Positions 4,462 through 63,805 of a stretch of DNA of 64,000 nt are shown one piece after another. A program made the position numbers and the translations under genes. Location: the NCBI GenBank assembly GCA_019748195.1, contig JAIEPW010000044.1:1-64000 (forward strand), given 5' to 3'. The stretch's first letter is position 1. Every line of letters begins with the position of its first letter. The notes under the pieces were generated by a model that worked only from the letters and a program-made list of their open reading frames with translations, searched no databases and had not been told where the DNA came from. Source of the DNA: Bryobacteraceae bacterium (GTDB taxonomy: Bacteria; Acidobacteriota; Terriglobia; Bryobacterales; Bryobacteraceae).

Positions 4462-5214
4462 ATGCTTCCCGATCTCGAGATCACCTTACGACTGCAAAGC
4501 CTCGACCTCCGCATCGGCGAGCTCGAGAAGGAGGTCGCCTCACTGCCGAAGCATATCGCCGCCATCGAGAAGACGCTGGACTCGCACGTGCGCCGCCTGG
4601 AAGCCGATCAGGCCGCGCTGGCGGCGAATCAGAAGGAGCGCAAGAAGCTGGACGGGGATATCCAGGTGCTGCAGCAGAAGATCTCCAAGTTCCGCGATCA
4701 GATGATGGGGGCCAAGACCAACGAGCAGTACCGTGCGTTCCAGCATGAGATCGATTTCGTCGAGAAGGAGATCCGCAAGGCGGAGGATCGCATTCTGGAG
4801 TTGATGACGCAATCGGAGCCGCTGGAGACCGCTGTCAAGAAAGCCGAGGCCGATCTGAAGGTGGAGAAGGCGCAGGTGGAAGCGGAGAAGGCCAAGGCCC
4901 GCGAGCGCACCGAGATCGACCAGGCGGAAGTGAAGAAGCTGCGGGAGGAGCGGGGCGAGGCCGTCGCGCGGATGGCCAAGCAGGTGCACACGCTTTACGA
5001 ACGCCTGCGGGTGAAGAAGGGCGGGGTGGCGATCGCCGAGGTAACCGAGGGCCGCTGCTCGGCGTGCCAGATGGCCCTGCGTCCCCAGTATTTTCAGGAG
5101 TTGCGGCGATCCGAGAGGGTGATGACCTGCGAGAGCTGCGGGCGCATCATCTTCTACAATCCGCCGGTCAGCTTTGTGGACATGAGCCCGGTTCAGGGCT
5201 CGGCCAAGGGTTGA
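4462..5214 (+). CDS. Coiled-coil zinc-ribbon protein (COG1579 / CT398-like)
   Basis: Cytoplasmic protein of 250 residues with a long antiparallel coiled coil (about residues 5-190, rich in Lys, Glu, Ala and Gln), capped by a C-terminal zinc ribbon built from CSAC and CESC about 28 residues apart. Homologues of this architecture are widespread and have been linked to nucleic-acid or secretion-related partners; the exact role is unsettled. The ORF track begins at 4357, but the ATG at 4462 has a good Shine-Dalgarno (TTGAGGTAC) and begins the conserved MLPDLEITLRLQSLD. Its 3' end overlaps the convergent BNR-protein gene by 22 bp. Confidence 0.85.
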   Translation: MLPDLEITLRLQSLDLRIGELEKEVASLPKHIAAIEKTLDSHVRRLEADQAALAANQKERKKLDGDIQVLQQKISKFRDQMMGAKTNEQYRAFQHEIDFVEKEIRKAEDRILELMTQSEPLETAVKKAEADLKVEKAQVEAEKAKARERTEIDQAEVKKLREERGEAVARMAKQVHTLYERLRVKKGGVAIAEVTEGRCSACQMALRPQYFQELRRSERVMTCESCGRIIFYNPPVSFVDMSPVQGSAKG

Positions 5215-6317
5215 GTCAACTCGGCGGTTTCCACCCGGCGGTCCTTCCAGGCGAACCACAGCTTGCCGTTCCAGGATTTCATTCTGGGGAAGCCGGAGGA
5301 TCGCCCGGCGGGCAGCGTGGCGACGGTCGCCGGCGCGCCGAGTTGCCCGGTCCGAGCGGCGGTTCGGGCGCGCAACTCGAGTTGTTTGTCGTCCTTCCGT
5401 TCCAGCCAGCTCACCACCGCGCCGGTCCGGGTGAGGAGGAGGTCGACGCGGCCTTCCGGATGGCCGCCGTCGATGCGCAGCGGCGGGGAGAAGGTCGCGC
5501 CGGCGTCATCTGAAAACGCGAGCTTCACCGCCTTTTCGCCGCCGGTGTACCAGGCTACGGCCACGCGCTTGCCTTCGGCGGCGATCGCGGGGCCGTTCAC
5601 CGGGCAACCGGGGATCTTCCAGTTATCGGCATGGACCGCGGCGGGGGCGGTCCAGTTGTTGCCCACGCGGCGCACGATCGAGATGTCGCGAATGTCCCGC
5701 GTGTGGTCGCGGTAGACCACCACGGGGCCGGCATCGGTCCAGGCCACGCCGGTCTGGCAGCAACTGCAAACGTCCAGGTCCACGGCGGAATTTGAAACCG
5801 GCGTTCCGTCGGCGCGAAATTCGGCGAAGTGGAGCTTGGTGTCGTGACCGCCGCCGGCGGTCTCCCGCGGAGCGAGGTAGGCCAGCGCGAGCCCGGTGGG
5901 CGACGGCATCATCGACACGAAGCCGGTGTACGCGTTTCGAGCTTGCGGCGCGGGCGCGAAGAACACATTCCAGGTCTTGCCCCCGTCGGCCGAGCGGGCG
6001 ACGCGCAGGTTATAGGAGTATTGCTCGGCGCTGCTCCGCTCCAGCCAGTGCGCCATGAGCGTGCCGTCCGCCAGCTCGACCAGGGAAGGGAAGTCCGCCC
6101 AGTTGACGAACCAGTTCTCGCCGCCGGCGATGGTGGCGGGTTTGGACCAGCCGCCGGGTTCCCGGGTGGCGAAGCGGAGCTCGTGGCGCTTGGGGCCGGT
6201 CTTCTCCACCCAGCTCAGGTAAAGCTTGCTGCCGGAATAGAGGTTGACGGGACCGCTGGCCTCGCCGGCGGGGTTGGGCACCGCGACCAGCGCGGCTGCA
6301 AGCGCGAGGAACCACAT
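5193..6317 (-). CDS. Secreted BNR-repeat (sialidase-fold) protein
   Basis: Exported six-bladed propeller-like protein of about 374 residues. The ATG at 6317 starts a clean signal peptide (MWFLALAAALVAVPNPAGEASG); the longer ORF-track start at 6341 is a TTG. Asp-box-like repeats are visible (RSADGGKTWN, FSDDAGATFS), as in sialidases and other BNR proteins. The Arg triad and Asp/Tyr/Glu set of true sialidases cannot be assigned with confidence, so it may be a non-catalytic or different glycan-active propeller. A CSCC cluster (VDLDVCSCCQTG) could form a disulfide or bind metal. Confidence 0.75.
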   Translation of the reverse strand: MWFLALAAALVAVPNPAGEASGPVNLYSGSKLYLSWVEKTGPKRHELRFATREPGGWSKPATIAGGENWFVNWADFPSLVELADGTLMAHWLERSSAEQYSYNLRVARSADGGKTWNVFFAPAPQARNAYTGFVSMMPSPTGLALAYLAPRETAGGGHDTKLHFAEFRADGTPVSNSAVDLDVCSCCQTGVAWTDAGPVVVYRDHTRDIRDISIVRRVGNNWTAPAAVHADNWKIPGCPVNGPAIAAEGKRVAVAWYTGGEKAVKLAFSDDAGATFSPPLRIDGGHPEGRVDLLLTRTGAVVSWLERKDDKQLELRARTAARTGQLGAPATVATLPAGRSSGFPRMKSWNGKLWFAWKDRRVETAELTQPLAEP

Positions 6318-51931: not shown

Positions 51932-53510
51932 GCGCCGGCTCACCGCGATTCTGTTCCTGGCGCCGGGGCTCACGGCGGGCATCGCGTCTCATGCGGACCG
52001 CGGGGGAATCGTCGAGATACGCCTGGATGACGGTCGCGCGGAAGTGGAGTTCGTCAGCGAAACGGCGTTCCGGCTCACCAGAGGTTGGGGTCCCGCGCCG
52101 TTGCAGCGTGCTCCCGTCCCACATCAGCCCGTGAAATACCGCGTTACCGGGGCCGCCTCCGAGCTGCGTATCGAATCGGATTCGATTGTGGTCGCGTTCG
52201 ACAAGGATACCTTCCGGATGTCCGTTCGCGACCTGAAGGGCGCCGCGATCCTCCGCGAGTCCAAGGCCGCCGGCCGCTTCGGAGATCGCGTTCGTCTGGA
52301 GATTCAGGCCGCCCCGTCGGACCGTTTCTTCGGATTCGGCTGGAACCGGCAGCCCGGAATTCAACTCCGAGGAAGACAGGGCACATCCACCCGCCCCTTC
52401 TTCTTCTCCAGCGCGGGCTACGGGATCTATTTACGCGGCGTGGCCAGCGCTCGGTACGATTTCCGGAACCTCGCGTTCTCTCTTGTCGAAGCCGTTTCTC
52501 CGACGCTGGACGTGCTGATCTATCACGGTCCAACACCCAAGGAGATCCTGCAGGAACATGCGAGCTTCAGTCGCGCCGACGAGCCGCTCAGCGGCAGTAG
52601 CCTCCAGGTGCTCGCGGTGAACGGACTTCCTCGCCTTGCCGAAGCGATGCCGCCGGTGTCCGATCTGAAAACGCTTACGGATCAATTGAATCAGGAATCG
52701 CTCAGCGGTGTCCGCTATCCCGCCGTGGATCTGAACTCGTTCGCGTCTTGGCCCGATCCCCAACGGCGGCGCGCGCTCCAGGTCGCGGCGATCCTGCCGC
52801 TTCTGTACGATTCGCGAAACGCGCGTCCGGTGGTTCCAGGCCGCGGCGCGTTCGTGCCTTACTTGCTCACGTATCTGCGCGAGGCTTACGATCGCGGCTA
52901 CCCGATAATCCACCCGCGCGTATTTCAGTTCTCACGCGACCCGGAAACCGCGCGCGATCCTGATTGGTTCATGGTGGGCGACGAGATCCTGGTTGCGCCG
53001 GTTTTCGACGAAACCGGCAAACGCAGGATCGAGCTGCCGCGCGGAAGCTGGACCGATCTTCGCGGCAACATCCGGTATCGTGGACGGCAGGTTGTGGAGG
53101 TGGACGCACCCGCCGATTACACGCCGCTGCTCGTTCGCAACGGAAGCCTGTTTCCCTTGGCCGTGCAATCCAGAAACGATTTTCTGGAGCTGCACTATTT
53201 CCCCAGCCTCGGCGGCGAGTTCTTCCTTTGGGAGGAGAGCATCGAGGAGAATACGCAGTTTCACGCATCTCCCGTTGGCGAGGAATACCGGCTGGAAATT
53301 GAAACCCGAGTGGACCGCACCTACGAGTGGATTGTTCACCACGTTGCCAAGCCAGTTTCCGTAAAGGATGAGCGCCTTGCGTTCCCGGAGGCCCGCGCGA
53401 TTACCGAATTGCGCCCAGGTCGCTGGTTCTACGACGCCGCTCGCCGGAATCTGCACGTGATGCTCGAAGCCGCCAAGGGCTCGGACCGCATCGTCAACAT
53501 TACTTTCTAG
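51912..53510 (+). CDS. GH31-like protein lacking the catalytic barrel core
   Basis: 532 residues from ATG 51912, overlapping the peptidase gene by 20 bp, with a signal-like N-terminus (RRLTAILFLAPGLTAGIAS). The first 210 residues match the GH31 N-terminal beta-sandwich (RFFGFGWNRQPGIQLRGRQGT, LDVLIYHGPTPKEIL). The last 230 match the GH31 end (YLLTYLREAYDRGYPIIHPRVF, DWFMVGDEILVAPVFDETGKR, ELPRGSWTDL). In between only about 100 residues replace the usual TIM-barrel portion of 300 or more, and no DMNE-type nucleophile or acid/base motif is seen. It is probably a non-hydrolytic remnant or carbohydrate-binding derivative. Its stop shares CTAG with the convergent tail gene. Confidence 0.75.
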   Translation: MPSFLFERRLTAILFLAPGLTAGIASHADRGGIVEIRLDDGRAEVEFVSETAFRLTRGWGPAPLQRAPVPHQPVKYRVTGAASELRIESDSIVVAFDKDTFRMSVRDLKGAAILRESKAAGRFGDRVRLEIQAAPSDRFFGFGWNRQPGIQLRGRQGTSTRPFFFSSAGYGIYLRGVASARYDFRNLAFSLVEAVSPTLDVLIYHGPTPKEILQEHASFSRADEPLSGSSLQVLAVNGLPRLAEAMPPVSDLKTLTDQLNQESLSGVRYPAVDLNSFASWPDPQRRRALQVAAILPLLYDSRNARPVVPGRGAFVPYLLTYLREAYDRGYPIIHPRVFQFSRDPETARDPDWFMVGDEILVAPVFDETGKRRIELPRGSWTDLRGNIRYRGRQVVEVDAPADYTPLLVRNGSLFPLAVQSRNDFLELHYFPSLGGEFFLWEESIEENTQFHASPVGEEYRLEIETRVDRTYEWIVHHVAKPVSVKDERLAFPEARAITELRPGRWFYDAARRNLHVMLEAAKGSDRIVNITF

Positions 53511-56308
53511 CCCAGGAACCCGCTCCATCGGGAGCCGCGGGACAAGGGCAGCGGATATCCGATCAGGCAAAGCTGGTCGAGCGCCCACAACACTACCGAT
53601 TCCATGCCTTTGCCCTCCGCGATCCGAGCTTCCTTCAGCGACGGCGCGGTTACGTCCATGATCCCCACCAGGTGGCTCCTTTGACTCGCCGGGAATCCGA
53701 GGCCCGCGCCGAACTCCGTTGTCCCTTCAGCGGCGTTCAAGTCCCGGTTGAACGTGAATCCGAAGCTCTCCGTTTTCAGGCACTGCAGGTTGGCGGGATT
53801 CCAATTGGAAGCGTAGTTGATGCTCTGGTTGAACGCGGTCTGATTCACGTCGGTCGGATACAGGACCTCGAAGCGGCACGCCGGGTGCGCCGCCCGGACA
53901 TATCCGATCACGGCGCTGGTGTACTCCTCCACCTGCTCCCGCAGAAACGCGACCTCCTCGGGATACGCAGCGGGATTTACATCGTGCGACGTGATGATCG
54001 CCATCGGCCGTCCGTATCGTGCCTGGAACGCCGACTTTGTGTACGCGTCGTAGAACGGCATCCCCGAATAAACTCGGGTAAGGCCGTCGTTCGCGAAATA
54101 CCACCATTGGACCTCGCCCAATTGCAGGTACGGCTGTATGCCGCCCTCCAGCATCAAGTCCGCCATTTCGCGATAGACCTCGCGCCAGAACAGGCGGCTG
54201 GTTGGATTGAACGCGGTTTGTACGGCCGGTGTCGGCAACAGGATCGGATCGCCCGCGGGTCCGCGCTGCACCAGGTCCGTGCCTGGCGAGAGATCCCCGT
54301 GCTGCAGCTCCAGGCTGAACGAGGCCGTGCAGTCAATACCCGCCTGGTGAAGCGCCGCGAAGTACGCCCGGCTCCAGTCCCGGCAAGCACGATTTAGTCT
54401 CGGAGTGCTGGACCGGTCCGTCACCCAGATTCCATCAACGCCGCCATGCAGGTTGGGATCGGCGCTGACGGTGAAGTTCGGATCCGTCGTGGAACCCGCA
54501 AGCGTGATCAGATTCCCCTCGGCGCCCCTGGCACGCGCGTGAATCGTCAACGTGGACCCGGCAACGCTCGCCCACATGCCCGTGTATCCGCGATTGATCT
54601 CGAGTGAGAACGCCAGCGCCACCGTTTCCGAGGTGTCCCCCACGTGATGCAGGTGCGAGAGCACCGTCGCGCTGCCGGCGGGCGCCCCGGCACGGTCGAT
54701 CGTAATGCTGGTGGTCCGGCTCGGGTCCGGGTTTCCCGAAAAAACGATGGACCCGGATGCGTACTGATGATCGAGCATCGCCAGTTCGTAGAACCACAGC
54801 GCGCCGACGTAGTAATTGGCCCGCCCGGTGAATCCCAGCGTCTTCATCCACCATGCCGTGCGTTCCGGCGCGACGCTGATCGAGTGGTCCGTGTCCCAAT
54901 CGGTCGCGAGCGTCATCCGAGGCTCCTCCGGGAATGCCGGAAGCGACTCCGACGGCGCCGCTGCTTCCAGGAAGTCGAAGTAGCACTTCTCACCGGCTTG
55001 CCCCGCGTGTGCGATGGTCACCACATGCTCTCCCGCCGGAAGCACTCCCACCAATCGCCGCTGCAAAAGGTCTTCACCCGGAAGATGCGTGCCTATTTCT
55101 TTCGGCGGGCCGCCGTCCACGGTCGCCAGCAGCCGGGCCCCGCGGATCGACGGGCTGGCGAATCCCAGGGACCTCGTGCCCAGGTACAGCGTATGTGCCA
55201 CCGGCATCCGGTACATCACCGAAACCTGCGATCCCGGAGTATCGCTCACACGGATGCTGCCACCCGAGTAGTTCCCGCGCTCCACGCTCCACGTTCCCGA
55301 GTAACCGCACCGAGCATCATCGTCCTCGATCCGCTCGCTGCCCGGGCCCGCGATCGTATACCGCCTTCCCGTACCCGTTACCGTCCAATTCGTGATGGAC
55401 ACCGCGAACTCGGAACGCGCGAACGCCCCGCTCTGCAGGTCCGCGGCGTAGGTCCACCGCATCTTCCGGATTCGATTCGTGGGCGCCGGCAAGCCGGTGC
55501 GAAAATCGGTAAGGCTGGAGAAATCCAAGGTCACCCGCCATTTCGTTGGCGACGTTCCCCCCGAGAATCGCTTCCACCCGGCATCCCAGCTCGCGGTGGC
55601 GCCGGACGCATATGTGTATACACCAATGCGATTTCCGTTCGTCCCGGCTTGATCCAGAGCCACGCTCCCCGGACACTTGCCCGGCGCGGCCGCCCGCGGA
55701 ACACCTCGATACTCCAATCGAATCGTACTCCCGATTCGAGTGGCCGAAACTCCATGCTCCGCCGTGCCGCTGTTCACGCTTAGCTCGATGGCCAACGCCG
55801 CATCCGCCAGCCCGTTCGTCTCTCCGAATTGGTACGTATGGTGGCGGCCCAGGAACTCCAGCCCAACCCAGTCTCCCGCCGTCGCCGTCCCGCTCAGCGT
55901 GAACTCCACCGAGGCATTCTGATAGCTCCCCTCGATCGGCGCCGCGTGTTCTCTCAGGCACACCAGATACGGTTCAGCCAGCGGCTGATCTGAGTCCCAG
56001 ATGCGAAGCGCATGCCACTCTACGGTCGGATACACGTCCGAGTCCATCGGGATGCAGTTGCTTCGCGCCTCATCGTAGGTCAGCACGAAGCGGCTCAAGT
56101 CGCCATCCGGCAGGTAGCGCATCAGCGGATGCTCGAAGACATTGTCCTGATTCCACTCGATGACGCACCAGTCGGACTGGCTGCGCCATGTTCCGGTAAC
56201 CTGAAAGCCGCTTGGCGATGCCTGGCTCATCGCCGCGATCGCCGACGGACGTTGGAAGTAACACTGCAGGTCCCGGTCCGGCCTCAGCTTCTCTAACGTT
56301 TCTGGCAT
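53507..56308 (-). CDS. Tail tip/fibre protein with TIM-barrel-like domain
   Basis: 933 residues, last gene of the tail module. The N-terminal 450 residues are beta-rich and adhesin-like (FTLSGTATAGDWVGLEFLG; EKCYFDFLEA). From about residue 470 the sequence turns to alternating helices and strands resembling a glycoside-hydrolase-like barrel (TLATDWDTDHSISVAPERT, WWMKTLGFTGRANYYVGALWFYELA, GGIQPYLQLGEVQWWYF, SFGFTFNRDLNAAEG). TIM-barrel-like domains are known in gene-transfer-agent and siphovirus tip proteins, where they may bind or cut surface glycans. It is separated from the hub gene by 2 bp. The capsule or wall target is unknown. Confidence 0.65.
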   Translation of the reverse strand: MPETLEKLRPDRDLQCYFQRPSAIAAMSQASPSGFQVTGTWRSQSDWCVIEWNQDNVFEHPLMRYLPDGDLSRFVLTYDEARSNCIPMDSDVYPTVEWHALRIWDSDQPLAEPYLVCLREHAAPIEGSYQNASVEFTLSGTATAGDWVGLEFLGRHHTYQFGETNGLADAALAIELSVNSGTAEHGVSATRIGSTIRLEYRGVPRAAAPGKCPGSVALDQAGTNGNRIGVYTYASGATASWDAGWKRFSGGTSPTKWRVTLDFSSLTDFRTGLPAPTNRIRKMRWTYAADLQSGAFARSEFAVSITNWTVTGTGRRYTIAGPGSERIEDDDARCGYSGTWSVERGNYSGGSIRVSDTPGSQVSVMYRMPVAHTLYLGTRSLGFASPSIRGARLLATVDGGPPKEIGTHLPGEDLLQRRLVGVLPAGEHVVTIAHAGQAGEKCYFDFLEAAAPSESLPAFPEEPRMTLATDWDTDHSISVAPERTAWWMKTLGFTGRANYYVGALWFYELAMLDHQYASGSIVFSGNPDPSRTTSITIDRAGAPAGSATVLSHLHHVGDTSETVALAFSLEINRGYTGMWASVAGSTLTIHARARGAEGNLITLAGSTTDPNFTVSADPNLHGGVDGIWVTDRSSTPRLNRACRDWSRAYFAALHQAGIDCTASFSLELQHGDLSPGTDLVQRGPAGDPILLPTPAVQTAFNPTSRLFWREVYREMADLMLEGGIQPYLQLGEVQWWYFANDGLTRVYSGMPFYDAYTKSAFQARYGRPMAIITSHDVNPAAYPEEVAFLREQVEEYTSAVIGYVRAAHPACRFEVLYPTDVNQTAFNQSINYASNWNPANLQCLKTESFGFTFNRDLNAAEGTTEFGAGLGFPASQRSHLVGIMDVTAPSLKEARIAEGKGMESVVLWALDQLCLIGYPLPLSRGSRWSGFLG

Positions 56309-56310
56309 GG

Positions 56311-59300
56311 CTACCTTCGCAGCGTGACCGTCAGATCCCGGCCGGGCATCGTGTTGGTTCCGGCGGGCACTGCCACGATATCCAGGCTCAACGGAACGCC
56401 GGTCGCCAACGGGGCCAGGCCGAATCCGTCAATTACGTTCGAGATCAGATTGCCCGCCGCAATGGTTAGATCGCAAACCAGGCTTGCTCCCTGGCGCAAT
56501 CGAAGTTGCACGTTCCCTCCTGTCGGCGCCTCTCGCACCCGTGCGAAGACGTCGCGAACCGCGTGGGTGGCTTCCACCTCGATCGCCGGCGCTGCATCGT
56601 TCTGCATCGCCAGGTAGCCTTCGATCGTCATGCTCAACTGCCCGCCGGAGAGCGTTCGCAGCCCGGCATCCGTCGTGCCGGTGAAGCTCGACCTCGCTAC
56701 CGCGCTGTTCCCGAAACGGTTCGTCACGAAAAAATCCGCCGCGCCGATCCGAACGTCCGGTATCGTCAGCGGAAACGTGAACGACCCGCTTGCCTGGCTC
56801 CCGAAAAAGCTCCGCAGGAAGGGTACGATGAAGGTTCGTTTCTCCAGCCGGTACACCTTCGTTCCCGCGCCATGACTGGCGGCGATGCTGCCGTGCGACG
56901 CCCGCGACACCGTGCATCCCGAACTCCCCAGGTCCACGGAGTCCACTCGCAGGATCTCGCCTCCGATCTGCAGCAGATCTCCGCTGTTGACCGGCGCTCC
57001 CGCGCTCAGCACGATCCCCTGCTCCGTAGGGTTGATTGCTTGCGCCAGGCCAATCGGGCTGGGACTTGCGATCTCGTTCCAGACATACAGCGTCAGGGTC
57101 CCGCCGGAAATCGAGGTTGTATTCGCCAGGCTGCTGAAACCGACGCCTTGCAACTCCACGCCTCCCTGGCCGAACGTATGCAGCCCGAAGAACGGCTCGG
57201 GGGGTACATCGCTGTCGCCCTGCGCCAGCGAGATCTGCCAGCGGCTAACCGGCGCCGTCTCCGCGCCGCTTTCCTCGTTACGTGCGTTGGCCGACCTCCC
57301 CATCACCTGCAGCACGGCCCCCGTCCGAGCTGGAAACTCGAATTCGGCGCTGTCCGTTTCCGTGATCGCGCCGAACCGCCAGCTCGACTCCGCGACAACG
57401 AACTCGCTAGTCGCGTCTGGCTCTACCACCCAGGGCGGTGTCACCGTCAAGGTGGTTCCGCTGTTCCCGGTCACTTGCCGTTCTTGGCCGCGCCCCCTGC
57501 CCGAAACAACGCGCACCACCTGACCCGCGTAGTTCCCGGGAAGCATGTTCAGGCTGACGTTTCCGATCGAATTCGGCCCATGCAAACCCGCCCCCGCCGG
57601 AGGCTGCAATTCGAACCTCCAGTAGAAGTTCGCATGGTGATAACTCATGTCGGGCGGCGGCGTCGCGTTCAGCGTCTGCCCGCCGGCATCTTCGAATTCA
57701 GCCGCAAGCGGCATGTCGCTCGCGATCCGCAAGAGTTGCGTCGGCGAGGGTCCCCGGTAGACACGGAATGCAACCGCTCCACCCGGAAAACCCAACCTGG
57801 TCAGCCGCACGCGGTTCGTGTTTGTTCCGCCCCCCAGCGCTGCCTTTGCGGTAAACGACAAGGGCCCTTCCCGCCCCTCCCCATCCACTCCGCTCACCGC
57901 GTAGTACAGCACCTGATTGCCCGCCAGGCCGCCGCCCAGCGTCTCCACTTCCGGGCTTAGCCCGATCAGGGGCACGCCCGCGCGCGACTCTGAACTCCGG
58001 GCAGGCGGCGCGAACCGGACCTTCAGCCTGCCGGACTCTTCAGGACCCCCGCCGGCCGTCTCCGCGATATCGAAATCGCTTCCGCCGTCGGCTCGGATCA
58101 TCGTACCCACCAATGGTCGCGGAATCTGAGTGCCCGAAGGCCTTTCTCTCCGCCCTCCGGCGTAGCCGACCCCGGTTCCTGTGTACCAGTCGTCCGAGTG
58201 CCATTGCGCGGTGATCCGCGCACGCTCGTAATTATGGAACGGCTCGATCCTCGTCACCCGGAAGGGCGCCCGGTTCAGACCCTCCTTGCCGTACGTCACC
58301 GTGATCAGATCCCCGGGCGAGATCCCAAAACCGCGGTACGTCGTTTCCAGTTCCACAAACGTATTTCCGAGGATCGCCTTGTCAAGCTGCAGCCTCAAGA
58401 TCCGTGCCGCCTGGTCGAAATTCGGCAGCCCGAGCGCCGCCACCGGCGCCGCCACCTCATGCCCCACCGCGTCGATATCGTCCATCGCCGCCAGGGACAG
58501 GCTGTCCTGCTGGTACTCGTTGAATTCGTTCTGAAACTCTACGCTCAGCCGGTTCGGACTGTCGCCGCCGGATCGGGACCACAGCCGGATGAGTGGCGCG
58601 CCGCTCTCACTCCGCAAAATGCCCGAGATCGGAGCCTGATCGCTGAACTCATACGCGGGCCACCCGCCGTTTAACGGCTCTGCCGCGTTGCTCCCGCCCG
58701 GCTTGACAGCGTGCTGTGCCGCGATTGGCCCTTCCACGCGAAGTCGCAGCTTCCCTCCCGGTGCAGGATGCAACAGCAAGTTCGATCCCGCGCGGATTCC
58801 CTTCACGATCTCCGCCGCGGGACGCCGCTTGCGAATCACCACATTGCACTGATATCGCGGCGTTGTCGCCGGGTTCCCATTCAGATCCGTTACCGGAATC
58901 AGTTCGCCGCAATACTGCGCCGCCGCGGAGAAGCTTGCCAGATCGATATCTTCCCGCTTCCATCCGCTCCGCAGCAGTACGTCCAGCAGAACCCATGCCG
59001 GGTTGTTCGTGAACGAAGCCCCCGCCGGCAGCCCCCCCGCGTCGAACCGCTCCAGCTTCATTCCCCGAACCAGCACTTCGATCTTCGGCAGCTTCTTCCC
59101 ATTGCTGATCCGGTTGGGAGTCACTACGCTCAACATCGCCATGCTTCCGTAGGGATCGCCTGCATCCTCCTCACCCGTTCCGGCGAAGTTCGGATTGAAA
59201 GCTCCGGTCCGTGCTCCCGCCGTGATCAGTTCGTACCAGCCGGTCGGCGTCATGTCCGCCCCGGGAACGCCTTGCGGTATCTCGACGTCCTCGACGACGA

Positions 59301-60225
59301 CCTTCACCACGCCGTCGATCTCGCCCATCCCCAACAAGACCTCTACACGCGTCAGATTGCCGTCATTCCGGGCGAATACAACGGGTGGCCGGTACCACGC
59401 CGTCCCGTAAACCAGCGGAACAAAGTCGTTGTATCTCGCTTCGTTCTCCGTCACCGCGGACGCTTGCCAATCGCGGTCTCCGTGACTTCGAACCTGTATC
59501 GTCGCCGGCACGAACTCCACGCCGCCGAACCGGCGCGTCACCCGCAGAAGCTGATCCCGGTCGAACATCCCCCTGGCGATGCACGCTGTCCTCGTGTAAT
59601 CACACGACACGAACGCAACCCCGCCGTTCAGGTTCCCGGCTCCCCCTTCCAGATCCGCCGAGTATCCGCACCGGTACAGCGCGGAATGCCGCCCCTTGGA
59701 TGCTCCATCCCGCGCCTCCACACGTTCCGCGGCGTCTGACGGAAACTGCCACGGGCAGCGCCGCTGGATTCTCACCTCCGGCAGCCCCACGCGCTGCAGC
59801 GCGAGCCTCCCGTAAAAACTGACCGTTGCCGCGGCCTCCGCGATCTCCTCGCATCCCGCGGCAACCCCGCGATAAATCAGCTCCGCGTCCGACGCTGCTG
59901 CGCCCGCCTCGACGTCCCAGAAAAGGAAGCGCAGCGTCAGCTTCGCGCCCTTCCAGCCGATGCTTCTCTCAATCTGGGAAACGCGGGAATCCACGTTCGA
60001 CAAGCGCACCCGCACCGTCGACATCGAATCCAGCCCTTCGTCCGAGGAAAGCCTCAGGTCCAGAACGTTGTGCTTCACTACCCGCGGCTCATAAGCGTTC
60101 CCCTCGAACGTCAAACGGTGCGTGCTGAATCGCTCCACCGTTCCGTCTCGTAACGCCGCCTCAAACAGCAACAGCGGAGCCGAGTTCGATACGGCTTGCT
60201 GCTTCATTTCATCGATTGTCGGCAT
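56311..60225 (-). CDS. Phage/GTA-like tail hub (baseplate) protein
   Basis: 1304 residues. The N-terminal 200 residues resemble the tail hub domain of GTA/DUF2163-type proteins (FEAALRDGTVERFSTHRLTFEG ... LRLSSDEGLDSMSTVRVRLSNVD). A large central part follows, with ISGILRSESGAPLIRLWSRSG and FGISPGDLITVTYG, typical of phage tail tip and host-specificity proteins. The C-terminal third has fibronectin-III-like and beta repeats (YYAVSGVDGEGREGPLSFTAKA). Clusters of cysteines (RRCPW, YRCGYS, SCDYTRTACIARG) near residues 155-215 may bind metal; iron-sulfur or zinc sites occur in some GTA hubs. It lies between the distal-tail and tip genes with 2-bp gaps. Confidence 0.75.
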   Translation of the reverse strand: MPTIDEMKQQAVSNSAPLLLFEAALRDGTVERFSTHRLTFEGNAYEPRVVKHNVLDLRLSSDEGLDSMSTVRVRLSNVDSRVSQIERSIGWKGAKLTLRFLFWDVEAGAAASDAELIYRGVAAGCEEIAEAAATVSFYGRLALQRVGLPEVRIQRRCPWQFPSDAAERVEARDGASKGRHSALYRCGYSADLEGGAGNLNGGVAFVSCDYTRTACIARGMFDRDQLLRVTRRFGGVEFVPATIQVRSHGDRDWQASAVTENEARYNDFVPLVYGTAWYRPPVVFARNDGNLTRVEVLLGMGEIDGVVKVVVEDVEIPQGVPGADMTPTGWYELITAGARTGAFNPNFAGTGEEDAGDPYGSMAMLSVVTPNRISNGKKLPKIEVLVRGMKLERFDAGGLPAGASFTNNPAWVLLDVLLRSGWKREDIDLASFSAAAQYCGELIPVTDLNGNPATTPRYQCNVVIRKRRPAAEIVKGIRAGSNLLLHPAPGGKLRLRVEGPIAAQHAVKPGGSNAAEPLNGGWPAYEFSDQAPISGILRSESGAPLIRLWSRSGGDSPNRLSVEFQNEFNEYQQDSLSLAAMDDIDAVGHEVAAPVAALGLPNFDQAARILRLQLDKAILGNTFVELETTYRGFGISPGDLITVTYGKEGLNRAPFRVTRIEPFHNYERARITAQWHSDDWYTGTGVGYAGGRRERPSGTQIPRPLVGTMIRADGGSDFDIAETAGGGPEESGRLKVRFAPPARSSESRAGVPLIGLSPEVETLGGGLAGNQVLYYAVSGVDGEGREGPLSFTAKAALGGGTNTNRVRLTRLGFPGGAVAFRVYRGPSPTQLLRIASDMPLAAEFEDAGGQTLNATPPPDMSYHHANFYWRFELQPPAGAGLHGPNSIGNVSLNMLPGNYAGQVVRVVSGRGRGQERQVTGNSGTTLTVTPPWVVEPDATSEFVVAESSWRFGAITETDSAEFEFPARTGAVLQVMGRSANARNEESGAETAPVSRWQISLAQGDSDVPPEPFFGLHTFGQGGVELQGVGFSSLANTTSISGGTLTLYVWNEIASPSPIGLAQAINPTEQGIVLSAGAPVNSGDLLQIGGEILRVDSVDLGSSGCTVSRASHGSIAASHGAGTKVYRLEKRTFIVPFLRSFFGSQASGSFTFPLTIPDVRIGAADFFVTNRFGNSAVARSSFTGTTDAGLRTLSGGQLSMTIEGYLAMQNDAAPAIEVEATHAVRDVFARVREAPTGGNVQLRLRQGASLVCDLTIAAGNLISNVIDGFGLAPLATGVPLSLDIVAVPAGTNTMPGRDLTVTLRR

Positions 60226-60227
60226 GC

Positions 60228-61028
60228 TTACCTTTCGGAAACGCTGATCAGTCGCAGTCGAGCTTCATGCTCTCCGGCTCTTGCCGATCGCATGCTCAAC
60301 GAATCTGAAGCGAACCTCGTTTGCGAGTACACCCCGCCCCGATCCGCCGTTCGTTGATATGCCGACGGCTCAGCTTGCGCTTCCACCTGCGCTCCCCAGA
60401 TCACGACCGATCCTCCAGGGTCCAGGCGGGCTTCAAAATCCACTTCATCGCCGCTCACGCCCGCTCGTCCGCTCCAGTAGCATCGCCGCCAGACGCTGCT
60501 CGTCTCCATCCAGCGCCCGTTTTCCGCCGTGCCGCTCCGGCACCCGATCCAAACCCGGCTTCCACCGTCCGAACGCGCGAACAACGAAAAGCAGTAATGG
60601 AACGCCGCGGGCGCCGCCAGACGCTGCCGGATCCCCTGCGCCGCCTGACCTGTGTTCGTGATCCGGCTCGCCGCGGTCCCGCCGATCGCATCTGACAGCC
60701 CCGCTGTGACCTGCGACAGCGGATCCCTCGTCCAATACGCGCTGGCAAAATCCTCACTCGACGAGAGCAGGTTCCCCAGAGGATCGAGGAACGTGAACGT
60801 CTTCAGTCTGCCCCTCACCGACCGGAACAAAGTCTCGATCGCCCCCCATTCCTCCCCCGTCAAGCCGCGCAGCGGCAGCTCCCACTCGATCTCGGCAAAA
60901 TCGCCATCGCGGTAGGAACTCCGAAACCCCTCCGGACTTTCATGCGTCACGGCGCGCCGTCGCACCACCTTTTCCAGCGGAAATTGACCGGCTGCGCCCT
61001 CCCTCAGTTGTGGAAACACGAGCATCAC
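60228..61028 (-). CDS. Distal tail protein paralogue with inserted beta domain
   Basis: 266 residues (GTG 61028 or ATG 61025). Residues 1-90 (FPQLREGAAGQFPLEK ... WELPLRGLTGEEWGAIETLFRSVRGRLKTFTFLDPLGN) and the last 35 (YSQTRFASDSLSM ... HEARLRLISVSER) align with the neighbouring 119-residue distal tail protein. Between them is an insertion of about 130 residues (SAYWTRDPLSQVTAGLSDAIGG ... GSVVIWGAQVEAQAEPSAYQRT) resembling the lectin-like modules of phage spike or fibre proteins. It is a DUF2460-like ring component connecting tube and hub, with a possible glycan-binding side domain. Confidence 0.7.
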   Translation of the reverse strand: MMLVFPQLREGAAGQFPLEKVVRRRAVTHESPEGFRSSYRDGDFAEIEWELPLRGLTGEEWGAIETLFRSVRGRLKTFTFLDPLGNLLSSSEDFASAYWTRDPLSQVTAGLSDAIGGTAASRITNTGQAAQGIRQRLAAPAAFHYCFSLFARSDGGSRVWIGCRSGTAENGRWMETSSVWRRCYWSGRAGVSGDEVDFEARLDPGGSVVIWGAQVEAQAEPSAYQRTADRGGVYSQTRFASDSLSMRSARAGEHEARLRLISVSER

Positions 61029-61388
61029 TTACACTCGCCTTTCTTCGATCACAAGACGTGCTTCCGTCCGGCCTTCGCCCGTCGCGAGTATCGCCAGCGA
61101 ATCCGCCGCGAATCCGCACTGCGGATACTCCACCCCGCTCCATGGATCCGTAAACGAGAACGTCCCGTGCGCTCCTCCGCGATCGCGGAACAGGTCCACG
61201 ATCGCCCCGCGCTCGGACTCGCTCAGCAGCCGGAACTCAATCTCCCATCGCTTCAGCTCCGCGCCGCCCTCTACGAACCTCTGTTCGCTGCCGTCGACAA
61301 ACCGGAACACCTGCGTCTGGAACCGCAGCGTCCGCGTGGCCGGATATTGCGCCACCGCCCCAGTCTTCAACCTCGGGAAGCTCGGCAT
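61029..61388 (-). CDS. Distal tail protein (DUF2460-like)
   Basis: 119-residue compact beta protein: FPRLKTGAVAQYPATRTLRFQTQVFRF ... WEIEFRLLSESERGAIVDLFRDRGGAHGTFSFTDPWSGVEYPQC. The pattern (short strand-rich N-terminus, ERxxIxxLFxxxxGxxxxFxFxDP) is that of GTA/siphovirus distal tail proteins that form the hexameric ring at the tube end. It is tandemly related to the next gene. The position directly after the tape-measure-like gene and before the hub is the expected one. Confidence 0.72.
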   Translation of the reverse strand: MPSFPRLKTGAVAQYPATRTLRFQTQVFRFVDGSEQRFVEGGAELKRWEIEFRLLSESERGAIVDLFRDRGGAHGTFSFTDPWSGVEYPQCGFAADSLAILATGEGRTEARLVIEERRV

Positions 61389-61389
61389 C

Positions 61390-61968
61390 CTAGATCTCCC
61401 TCACCACATCGCTCAGCACGCCGCTGTTCAACATCGCCTCCCGAACCGCCTGGGCGATGTCATGACTGCGATCCAGAAAGGACCGGCTGTCCATCGCCTG
61501 CACGTTCACCGTGATCTGCGGGGCGCCCGCGCCGCCGCCGATCTCCCGCAATCGGCCGCCTTGCCCCTCGGAGATCTGCACCAGCCGCTCGCGGTCCGCG
61601 CTTCGATACCCCGCTTCCGTCTCCACCCGCGCCGGCCGCGAATACAGCATCAACGCCGGCATGTCGTCTTTCTCCCTGTCCCCGCCTCCAAAGAGACCTG
61701 CCAGACCGCTGACCAGCGGGCCGATGCCGAATAGGCTCCCCAGGCCCACTGCGATCGCCCTGCCCACGCCGCCCTCGGCCGGCCCGGATTTCTCTCGCTG
61801 CCCTGTGGGCCGGAAAACTCTCGAGCTCTGCCTCTTCTGCGACTCCCTCGTCGAACTCACCCACGCCTGCTCTGCCTGCCTCGGCAGCCAGTCAGCGAGT
61901 GTATGACCCGTGCCCGCGCCCGCCGCCAGTCTCGCCATCAATTCCGCGATCCGCTCTCGCTCGCTCAT
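61390..61968 (-). CDS. Very short tape-measure-like tail protein
   Basis: 192 residues from ATG 61968, which has GGAGGGACGGA upstream; the 62031 start in the track is less good. A soluble helical N-terminus (MSERERIAELMARLAAG), a Gly/Leu-rich hydrophobic segment (IAVGLGSLFGIGPLVSGLAGLFGGG) and a C-terminal ITVNVQAMDSRSFLDRSHDIAQAVREAML match the ends of phage tape-measure proteins. Most of those have over 600 residues. Tail length scales with tape-measure length, so a tail here would be very short, as in gene transfer agents. It overlaps the chaperone extension ORF by 77 bp. Confidence 0.6.
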   Translation of the reverse strand: MSERERIAELMARLAAGAGTGHTLADWLPRQAEQAWVSSTRESQKRQSSRVFRPTGQREKSGPAEGGVGRAIAVGLGSLFGIGPLVSGLAGLFGGGDREKDDMPALMLYSRPARVETEAGYRSADRERLVQISEGQGGRLREIGGGAGAPQITVNVQAMDSRSFLDRSHDIAQAVREAMLNSGVLSDVVREI

Positions 61969-62314
61969 TCCGTCCCTCCGCTTCCGCCTCTCGGTCCAAA
62001 ACCAGGAACGCCTCTGCCTCTCGCGCCGCAACTTCGTCCCAGTCCTTTCTCCCCCAGCCCCGGCATGCGTAGGCCTCCAGCAACCGCAAACTCTCCGGTG
62101 TGATCAGCGAGCGGGGGCACTCCTCAACCCCCAAGGACCCCCGCGCCCACACAACCTTCCGTGGCTCCGAAGCCGCCGCTCCCGTGAACCCGCACCGCCG
62201 TTCCCTCTCGAGTCCGTTCCGCCTGCACGTGTCGCACCTCCACCCGGCCTCGCCCGATCGATGGAAATGGAAGGCGACCCTCAGTTTTTTCGTTCTTCCT
62301 CGCTTAATCCGCAC
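61892..62314 (-). CDS. Tail assembly chaperone -1 frame extension (T part)
   Basis: This ORF overlaps the chaperone gene in the -1 frame and has no convincing start of its own; GTG 62314 is the best, while the track uses 62446. If ribosomes slip at 62284-62290 it is read as a 130-residue C-terminal extension starting LRVAFHFHRSGEAG, giving a 257-residue fusion, as lambda G and G-T. The extension has a CDTC...RCGF group and ECPRSLITPESLRLLEAYACRGW, typical of phage chaperone extensions that contact the tape measure. It lies exactly between chaperone and tape measure. Confidence 0.6.
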   Translation of the reverse strand: MRIKRGRTKKLRVAFHFHRSGEAGWRCDTCRRNGLERERRCGFTGAAASEPRKVVWARGSLGVEECPRSLITPESLRLLEAYACRGWGRKDWDEVAAREAEAFLVLDREAEAEGRNERARADRGIDGETGGGRGHGSYTR

Positions 62315-62664
62315 TCCATGCGAATCCGCTCCAACGCCTCCCCGCACAGATCCTCGGGCCCTCCCGCGATCAGCCGCTGCGGCGATGCCTCCTCGCCGTC
62401 GATCCTCAATCCCCGAACCTCCAGCAGCCCCCACTCCAGGTAACAACGCCGGATCTCCTGCTCGATCACCGCCTGCTCCGCCCGGTCCTGTTCGCCTGCC
62501 TCCACGAACTCCAGCCGGCGGCCGATTTCGCGTACGCGTTTCATCAGATCCAGCCGCCGGTTGACGCTCATCCTCGCCACCCGCAGATACACTCCGGGAT
62601 ACCGCGCCGATTCGAATTCCACTACGCTTTCGTACTCAGCCGAACGCGACATACAGTTCGTCAT
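62281..62664 (-). CDS. Tail assembly chaperone (G-like)
   Basis: 127 residues from ATG 62664, preceded by AGGGGAGCGGGA and overlapping the tail tube stop by 29 bp. The start of the longer track ORF (62727) lies within the tube gene. The fold is mostly helical after an N-terminal beta part (ESVVEFESARYPGVYLRVARMSVNRRLDLMKRVREIGRR), as in siphovirus tail chaperones. It ends ECGLSEEERKN-stop, and the last codons CGA-AAA-AAC contain the heptamer A-AAA-AAC in the zero frame. It prevents premature tape-measure aggregation in known systems. Confidence 0.7.
   Translation of the reverse strand: MTNCMSRSAEYESVVEFESARYPGVYLRVARMSVNRRLDLMKRVREIGRRLEFVEAGEQDRAEQAVIEQEIRRCYLEWGLLEVRGLRIDGEEASPQRLIAGGPEDLCGEALERIRMECGLSEEERKN
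62284..62290 (-). promoter_or_regulatory. -1 programmed frameshift slippery heptamer A-AAA-AAC
   Basis: Fits X-XXY-YYZ in phase with the chaperone frame, immediately before its TGA. A purine-rich GAGGAAGA lies a few bases upstream, like the Shine-Dalgarno-type stimulator of dnaX. The shifted frame opens directly into the overlapping extension ORF. Confidence 0.65.
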
Positions 62665-63805
62665 TCCCGCTCCCCTGCGCCCGGCTGCCGCCGAACTTCC
62701 AGCCCAGCCGCGTCTCCCGATCGTCAAACTCCGGAACTTCCGGCACCAAGGCCGGCATGTACACCCCGAACAACTGATTCGCCTGCTGCCCGAGCTGGAT
62801 CATCGCCCCCACCGGAGACCGCTGCCTCGCCGCCTGATACAACTCCTTCGTCGCCGCATCGTCCCGCTCGAAAATGCTGAACTCCAGCTCCACTCTCCGC
62901 TCGCCGCCCACGATGCACTGCGCGAAATCGCTGCCGAACTCCCGCGCCCTTAGATCCAGCCCGTTGTCCAGTCTCACGCGCGCCCCCGTCAGCGTGTAAA
63001 ACCGCGAAGGCCCGGATCCCAGCCACACCTGTCCCAGATGACCTGGCACGATCGAGTAGTCGAATCCCGCCGCCTCGGGCTCCGCCGGATAATTGCTCAG
63101 CCCCGCCTGACCGCCCTCGAAACTCACGCTGTCCAGCAGATCCTTGGCTGGACCCTCGAAACTGAACTCGTGAAAGTCATCGTTCACCCGGATCTCCGCC
63201 CGGTTCATCGCCGCCCCGCACAGCAACCTTTGCACCGCACCCGCCGGCGACCAGTAGTCGTAAACGCTCAATCCCTTCAACTCCGTCGCCAGCCCGTACG
63301 TTACCGTCCGGCCGGCGGCATCCCCCGCCGAAACCGGGAAGCTGAACGGCGCGTTTACCACCACGCTCACCGCGCTCGGGATCGCCGCCGCGAACCGCAT
63401 CTCCCCCCGGATCTCGATCGCTTGTCCGGCTTCCAGCCCGTGCGCCGCCGAGAAAGTCACCAGCGATCCCGCGCTCCCGCTCACCGTTCCTCCCGCGAAC
63501 ACTCGCGCGTTTCCGCCCATCGCCGCCTCGAACAGCGCGCCCTCGCTCGGCTGCGCGGCTTGCGGCGCCCAGCTCGTCAGATAGGTGCTCAGCCGGAACT
63601 CCGTTCGCCGCCGGACTCCCGCCGGCAATCCGGCGAATGTCCGGCTGCCCGTCTTATCGCGCCGCCCCCGCGTCTCCGCGAATTGCCGCGGCGCGAACTC
63701 CACCGCCGGAATCCGGTTCGCCCCCGTTATCGCTGCCGCCGTACCGTAGCTGCTTTCCAACGCGGCGTAGAGCCGGTTGTCGTTGGATGACACATAACAC
63801 GCCAT
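62636..63805 (-). CDS. Major tail tube protein
   Basis: 389 residues with AGAGGAGG upstream of ATG 63805. The N-terminus (RLYAALESSYGTAAAITGANRIPAVEFAP) and C-terminus (FDDRETRLGWKFGGSRAQGSGNDELYVAFG) are characteristic of siphovirus and GTA-like tube proteins. The middle holds an added beta module (GSLVTFSAAHGLEAGQAIEIRGE ... PFSFPVSAGDAAGRTVTYG), like the Ig-type decorations on some tubes. It is about twice the length of a minimal tube protein. It lies between the terminator-like gene and the chaperone, the canonical order. Confidence 0.72.
   Translation of the reverse strand: MACYVSSNDNRLYAALESSYGTAAAITGANRIPAVEFAPRQFAETRGRRDKTGSRTFAGLPAGVRRRTEFRLSTYLTSWAPQAAQPSEGALFEAAMGGNARVFAGGTVSGSAGSLVTFSAAHGLEAGQAIEIRGEMRFAAAIPSAVSVVVNAPFSFPVSAGDAAGRTVTYGLATELKGLSVYDYWSPAGAVQRLLCGAAMNRAEIRVNDDFHEFSFEGPAKDLLDSVSFEGGQAGLSNYPAEPEAAGFDYSIVPGHLGQVWLGSGPSRFYTLTGARVRLDNGLDLRAREFGSDFAQCIVGGERRVELEFSIFERDDAATKELYQAARQRSPVGAMIQLGQQANQLFGVYMPALVPEVPEFDDRETRLGWKFGGSRAQGSGNDELYVAFG

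Follow-up and report, generated by a model that had tools for sequence, protein, structure and literature searches.

The closest described counterpart of the locus analysed here is the G/G-T frameshift of phage lambda, which uses the slippery sequence G-GGA-AAG. Frameshifting in E. coli dnaX is stimulated by an upstream Shine-Dalgarno (SD) sequence together with a hairpin. The lambda frameshift and its equivalents in other long-tailed phages were described by Xu, Hendrix and Duda in 2004, as summarized in a review (PMC5009743). According to the same review, the dnaX heptamer is A-AAA-AAG, and A-AAA-AAC, one of the most slip-prone heptamers on mammalian ribosomes, is a poor one relative to A-AAA-AAG in E. 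coli (PMC5009743).

We analysed a 64,000-nt stretch of DNA from a Bryobacteraceae bacterium (contig JAIEPW010000044.1, positions 1 to 64,000; hereafter, the window). Two overlapping ORFs lie between the genes for the tail tube and the tape measure, the downstream one in the −1 frame (Table 1). The upstream, chaperone-position ORF starts at an ATG behind GGGGAGCGGGA and ends GAG GAA GAA CGA AAA AAC TGA. From the last C of the heptamer, the −1 frame reads CTG AGG GTC GCC TTC... for 130 codons, with its stop at 61892-61894, and the predicted fusion of chaperone and extension has 257 aa. A first-pass annotation, made from this sequence alone, had described a chaperone ORF ending CGA-AAA-AAC-TGA with the heptamer A-AAA-AAC in X-XXY-YYZ phase, a −1 frame open for 130 codons that gives a 257-residue fusion, and CDTC and ECPRSLITPESL motifs in the extension. 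We see the same end and phase on the minus strand (62290-62284), find the same lengths, and find both motifs in the window sequence of the extension. The best explanation, in which we have high confidence, is a −1 frameshift that is stimulated by a pseudoknot and yields products of 127 and 257 aa, in a mostly vertically inherited and probably domesticated cluster of particle genes.

Table 1. Positions in the window of the frameshift signal and the surrounding tail genes.
Feature	Position	Strand	Evidence
Zero-frame ORF (“G”) of 127 aa at the tail assembly chaperone position	62281..62664	-	ORF, start; profile matches in 194/237 family genomes
Slippery heptamer A-AAA-AAC, X-XXY-YYZ phase	62284..62290	-	Conserved in 72/79 homologues; six have AAAAAAT, one has lost it
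Zero-frame stop TGA, immediately 3ʹ of heptamer	62281..62283	-	Stop there in 66/79 homologues
−1 frame extension (“T” part), 130 aa	61892..62284	-	Alignments, pN/pS, AlphaFold2 model
5-nt spacer, heptamer to stem 1	62279..62283	-	Ungapped in 66-sequence alignment
Stem 1, 5ʹ arm GUCGCCUUCCA	62268..62278	-	Covariation
Stem 1, 3ʹ arm UGGAGG-U-GCGAC, one bulged U	62231..62242	-	Covariation
Stem 2, 5ʹ arm, within stem 1 loop	62244..62252	-	Covariation in 5/9 pairs; 15 inferred double changes
Stem 2, 3ʹ arm	62209..62217	-	Covariation in alignment; 7/9 pairs in window sequence
GAGGAAGA, proposed SD-like stimulator, unsupported	62294..62301	-	Anti-SD pairing weaker than synonymous null, 79 loci
Probable tail tube protein	62636..63805	-	phrog_290 tail, E 1.8e-6; collinear in 17 genera
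Short tape-measure-position protein, 192 aa	61390..61968	-	phrog_3779 tape measure, E 0.0045
DUF2460 distal tail protein	61029..61388	-	PF09343, E 2.4e-8
Second, divergent DUF2460-like protein	60228..61028	-	PF09343, E 0.054 only; collinear
Central tail fibre J-like protein	56311..60225	-	phrog_1101, E 1.9e-21; phrog_31, E 3e-21; PF13550
TIM-barrel tail protein that ends the cluster; relative of non-contractile tail sheath protein	53507..56308	-	PF23845, E 2.5e-19

We gathered 79 homologous loci by protein search, without requiring a slippery site. A protein search gave chaperone matches in 34 of 61 relatives. The heptamer is A-AAA-AAC in 72 of these loci, A-AAA-AAT in six and G-AGA-AAC in one, whereas the codon usage of these ORFs would lead us to expect an R-K-N end spelled (N)NA-AAA-AAC in ~4% of loci. 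The seventh base is always C or T, and AAG is never used. The residue preceding Lys varies (Arg, Glu, Ala, Gln and Ile, with codons CGA, AGA, GAA, GCA, CAA and ATA), yet its codon ends in A in all 78 loci that keep the slippery run, a pattern that suggests selection on the base and not on the amino acid. Even highly diverged members (genus g261, E about 1e-12) retain both the slippery site and the extension. The sole homologue without the run (L004, GAGAAAC at 1860-1866) has an intact extension and pseudoknot; its genome has 7% contamination. The zero-frame stop is not essential, because 13 of the 79 homologues have none at the heptamer and run on, and we reject the stop codon as a required part of the signal. 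Loci that came from a DNA pattern search were left out of the heptamer statistics, since the pattern itself fixes the heptamer.

Could the break between chaperone and extension be a sequencing error or the mark of a decayed prophage? The region is phage-like and belongs to a fragmented draft genome, whose other copy (contig C154) is broken at a contig end. This reading is refuted by the conservation of the frame break, which recurs in 79 loci of different genomes, and by the purifying selection that the close pairs we tested show in both frames; the chance that it is correct is negligible. For eight close pairs, pN/pS of the extension is 0.17–0.21 in the −1 frame, which is like the chaperone's own value of 0.17; the two remaining frames give 1.3 and 2.3.

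A second alternative keeps the extension as a real coding sequence and dispenses with frameshifting: it would be a separate gene with an internal start, which might, for instance, be translationally coupled to the stop of the chaperone. An in-frame GTG does lie 30 nt upstream of the extension in the window, and some relatives have similar GTGs. However, the window GTG is without a convincing ribosome-binding site and its position is not common to all homologues. Of the 79 loci, 28 lack any ATG, GTG or TTG from the preceding −1-frame stop to codon 15 of the extension, and that stop is in some loci just 9 nt upstream of the extension. The homologues that do have start codons share no universally conserved one, and the codon behind the heptamer may be CTG, CTA, CTC or CTT, so that there is no conserved CTG start either. 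Furthermore, an internal start leaves the conservation of A-AAA-AAC and of the pseudoknot unexplained. We consider it very improbable. The first-pass annotation, which had seen no good start for the extension, had suggested aligning homologues, and had reasoned that homologues without the slippery run, or with a separate start codon and ribosome-binding site for the extension, would speak against a frameshift. The heptamer, its phase, the extension and the missing starts are all conserved among the homologues, and we found no refutation of this kind. The programmed −1 frameshift that it had placed at the G/T position of an acidobacterial tail module is strongly supported by these comparisons.

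The extension has four cysteines (C17, C20, C31 and C56, counted from its first Leu) that are invariant in 58 sequences with identity down to 22%. Its AlphaFold2 model is confident (pLDDT 86.8). We found no relative of the model in the PDB, and the extension matched no known protein family. It is probably a metal-binding domain, and the metal may be zinc.

Downstream of the heptamer we found a conserved H-type RNA pseudoknot with stems of 11 and 9 pairs. In the consensus, stem 1 consists of GUCGC-CUUCCA paired with UGGAAG-U-GCGAC, which gives 11 pairs and one bulge. Stem 2 is formed by a 9-nt stretch of the loop, CCAGGCCGG, that is complementary to CCGGCCUGG 3ʹ of stem 1; the window sequence has mismatches at 62244/62217 and 62248/62213. 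In an ungapped alignment of 66 sequences, 89.8% of paired cells are complementary as compared with 84.5% in shuffles, and the covariation score is 0.200, which none of 500 shuffles reached, as compared with 0.131. The score falls to ≤0.077 when the partner is slid by 1–3 columns. Since conservation of the protein could mimic covariation, we shuffled synonymous codons within alignment columns as a null; both stems exceed it (z 5.4 for stem 1 and 4.8 for stem 2). On a protein-based tree we infer 29 pair-preserving double changes, of which 14 fall in stem 1 and 15 in stem 2; slid partners gave 0–4. In close pairs, the synonymous differences over the pseudoknot are half those in the remaining extension. 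RNAalifold recovers stem 1 unaided. The single-sequence fold of stem 1 is unexceptional (z −1.4), and the support for the pseudoknot is comparative. A search of Rfam for a known RNA family gave nothing credible, with one chance match (E 2.1). Judged by the compared sequences, the heptamer, its phase, the extension and the pseudoknot are established, and the claim of frameshifting is as strong as such a comparison allows.

The first-pass annotation had looked for the stimulator on the other side of the heptamer, in an upstream GAGGAAGA. That proposal finds no support: over the 79 loci, the 18 nt before the site pair with the anti-SD at an average of −4.65 kcal/mol, compared with a synonymous expectation of −5.40 kcal/mol, and 100 of 100 simulations gave stronger pairing. 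GAGGAAGA reflects the Glu-rich end of the protein. On the comparative evidence, the stimulator is the conserved 3ʹ pseudoknot and not GAGGAAGA.

An alternative explanation for the six-A run in the conserved motif is transcriptional slippage, in which RNA polymerase slips on the run, the mRNA gains a base, and the fusion is read in frame. However, six A is short for transcriptional slippage, the seventh base is always C or T, and the X-XXY-YYZ phase is fixed. The pseudoknot, 3ʹ of the heptamer at the customary distance, is in keeping with slippage of the ribosome. We regard slippage of the polymerase as quite improbable.

How would a pseudoknot-stimulated frameshift work at this site? We propose that the majority of ribosomes terminate at the TGA behind A-AAA-AAC and produce the 127-aa protein. 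A minority would be stalled by the pseudoknot, whose stem 1 begins after the 5-nt spacer, while the heptamer occupies the P and A sites; these ribosomes would slip back by one base and continue in the −1 frame to give the 257-aa fusion with the four-cysteine domain. We infer both the ribosomal slip itself and its rate. By analogy with lambda gpG and gpGT, the 127-aa form may coat the tape measure, and the 257-aa form may recruit the tail tube protein. The genome has tRNA-Lys with a UUU and with a CUU anticodon. The CUU tRNA would be expected to hold AAG, and AAC together with a pseudoknot may be the workable combination in this host.

The name of tail assembly chaperone, given in the first-pass annotation, is supported by position and architecture, but neither the chaperone-position protein nor the extension has a significant match to a Pfam or PHROG chaperone family. 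The AlphaFold2 model of the chaperone-position protein has a pLDDT of 89.7, and its best phage match in the PDB, the HK97 chaperone 2ob9, is weak (E 1.9, TM 0.42/0.49). The identity and function of the 127-aa protein as a chaperone rest on position and architecture. The tape-measure-position protein has a median length of about 210 aa in the family, as compared with 862–963 aa in related prophages. This is a likeness to RcGTA, the tape measure of which is short as well.

Prophage regions in two other acidobacterial families (L069 and L070) encode a homologous Cys domain that lies in the −1 frame relative to the ORF before it. In L069 (4455-4743), the slippery sequence is A-AAA-AAC, and a tape measure of 963 aa directly follows the Cys domain; in L070 (reverse complement, 5172-5637), the sequence is A-AAA-AAA, and the next tape measure ORF is 929 aa long. 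The genome of the window itself has a second tail cluster (L068; contig C154, 222001-234889, at the contig end) with the same gene order, a Cys-domain extension, a TIM-barrel tail protein and a tape-measure-position gene of 862 aa. This arrangement in relatives, with a long tape measure behind the Cys domain, supports the reading of the upstream ORF as a tail chaperone.

Three other features of the second tail cluster were seen. Its junction is CAG-GGG-GAA in place of A-AAA-AAC. At the contig end, its chaperone lies in pieces on opposite strands, which may reflect an assembly error. Long proteins terminate both tail clusters (53507-56308 in the window and 1-3092 in L068).

The frameshift site lies in a cluster (L031) of ~16 kb that extends from 53507 in the window to about 70100 on the contig (C149), where there is a candidate for the small terminase. 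The cluster encodes TerL, a portal, a scaffold, a P22-like coat, three head-tail proteins, the tube and the chaperone/extension, followed at the tail end by the short tape measure, two DUF2460-type proteins, the J-like protein and the TIM-barrel tail protein. Gene order is identical in all 17 genera examined. With the chaperone profile we found matches in 194 of the 237 genomes of the family, in nearly every case a single one per genome, and in 68 of its 76 genera; the chaperone is nearly absent elsewhere in the phylum (396-genome sample). Distances for the element and for RpoB are correlated (Mantel r 0.71, p 0.0002), and the two trees have 7 of 14 splits in common, where chance would give 0.4; some deep branches are in supported conflict. 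In our reading, the cluster derives from a phage, encodes a short-tailed particle and is mostly vertically inherited in one acidobacterial family (the Bryobacterales/Solibacter group). It is probably domesticated like a gene transfer agent (GTA), a claim that is much less certain than the frameshift.

Instead of a GTA, the locus could be an ordinary prophage that is still active, or a tailocin. All of its genes are phage-type, the head and tail modules are complete, and related contigs have been collected in IMG/VR. The flanking genes, too, are common to few genera only, and the chromosomal site mostly differs between genera; a single site in all genera was considered and mostly does not hold. 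Against a prophage, the element is single-copy in nearly all 194 genomes, its tree is congruent with that of RpoB, and neither the chaperone nor the extension matched any of 50,697 phage records. Furthermore, the copy studied here lies between genes for an aminotransferase and a GH31 enzyme, and no integrase or replication genes were among those called in the cluster. The presence of head genes argues against a tailocin. We take the prophage or tailocin explanation to be a serious one, with a probability somewhat below one half. That the locus is a family-wide GTA, unrelated to RcGTA, whose tail assembly has been under a pseudoknot-dependent −1 frameshift since the ancestor of the family has, in our estimate, an even chance.

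The DNA pattern of the frameshift signal matches >100 short IMG/VR contigs (≤23 kb) and >100 named genomes, essentially all of which are titled Bryobacterales, Solibacter or other Acidobacteriota. The cultured Acidobacteriaceae bacterium KBS 96 is one of the carriers. Many of the IMG/VR contigs with the signal (L237-L316 included) may be fragments of bacterial chromosomes that contain the element, and not viruses.

What is the significance of this signal? It combines, in bacteria, a pseudoknot well supported by covariation with a heptamer that works poorly on the ribosomes of E. coli, and thereby offers a natural opportunity to test the response of other bacterial ribosomes to signals of the viral type. 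Ordinary gene callers are unable to connect the extension with its gene, and recognizing the frameshift would correct the annotation in about 200 genomes. The locus also points to a family-wide, mostly vertical particle cluster in soil bacteria, which would make GTA activity in Acidobacteriota directly testable. In the open-access literature we found neither a GTA reported from Acidobacteriota nor a tail-chaperone frameshift reported to have a pseudoknot.

Several described systems share parts of this arrangement. As in the −1 signals of eukaryotic viruses (PMC5009743), there is an X-XXY-YYZ heptamer, a spacer of similar length and an H-type pseudoknot, but the host here is bacterial and the gene is a tail gene, and the likeness does not imply common origin. 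The Listeria phage PSA also has a stimulatory pseudoknot in a structural gene, although its shift is +1, at a proline codon of the capsid gene (PMC5009743). E. coli dnaX has a −1 slippery heptamer with a run of A; in contrast, AAG is never used here, tRNA-Lys with CUU and with UUU are both present, and no SD signal was seen. RcGTA and other GTAs (PMC11841831) are likewise compact, single-copy head-tail clusters with vertical inheritance. Unlike RcGTA, the putative particle cluster described here has a P22-like coat and J-like and TIM-barrel tail genes. The lambda G/G-T system is similar in that the site lies between the tail tube and tape measure genes, the −1 shift occurs at the end of the upstream ORF, and the extension has no start of its own. 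It differs in that the proteins here could not be linked by sequence to any listed chaperone family, the heptamer is A-AAA-AAC with a conserved pseudoknot, the extension has four cysteines, the tape measure is very short, and the cluster is family-wide and apparently domesticated. G/G-T frameshifting itself is known; what is new is the pseudoknot, the four-cysteine extension and the apparently domesticated setting.
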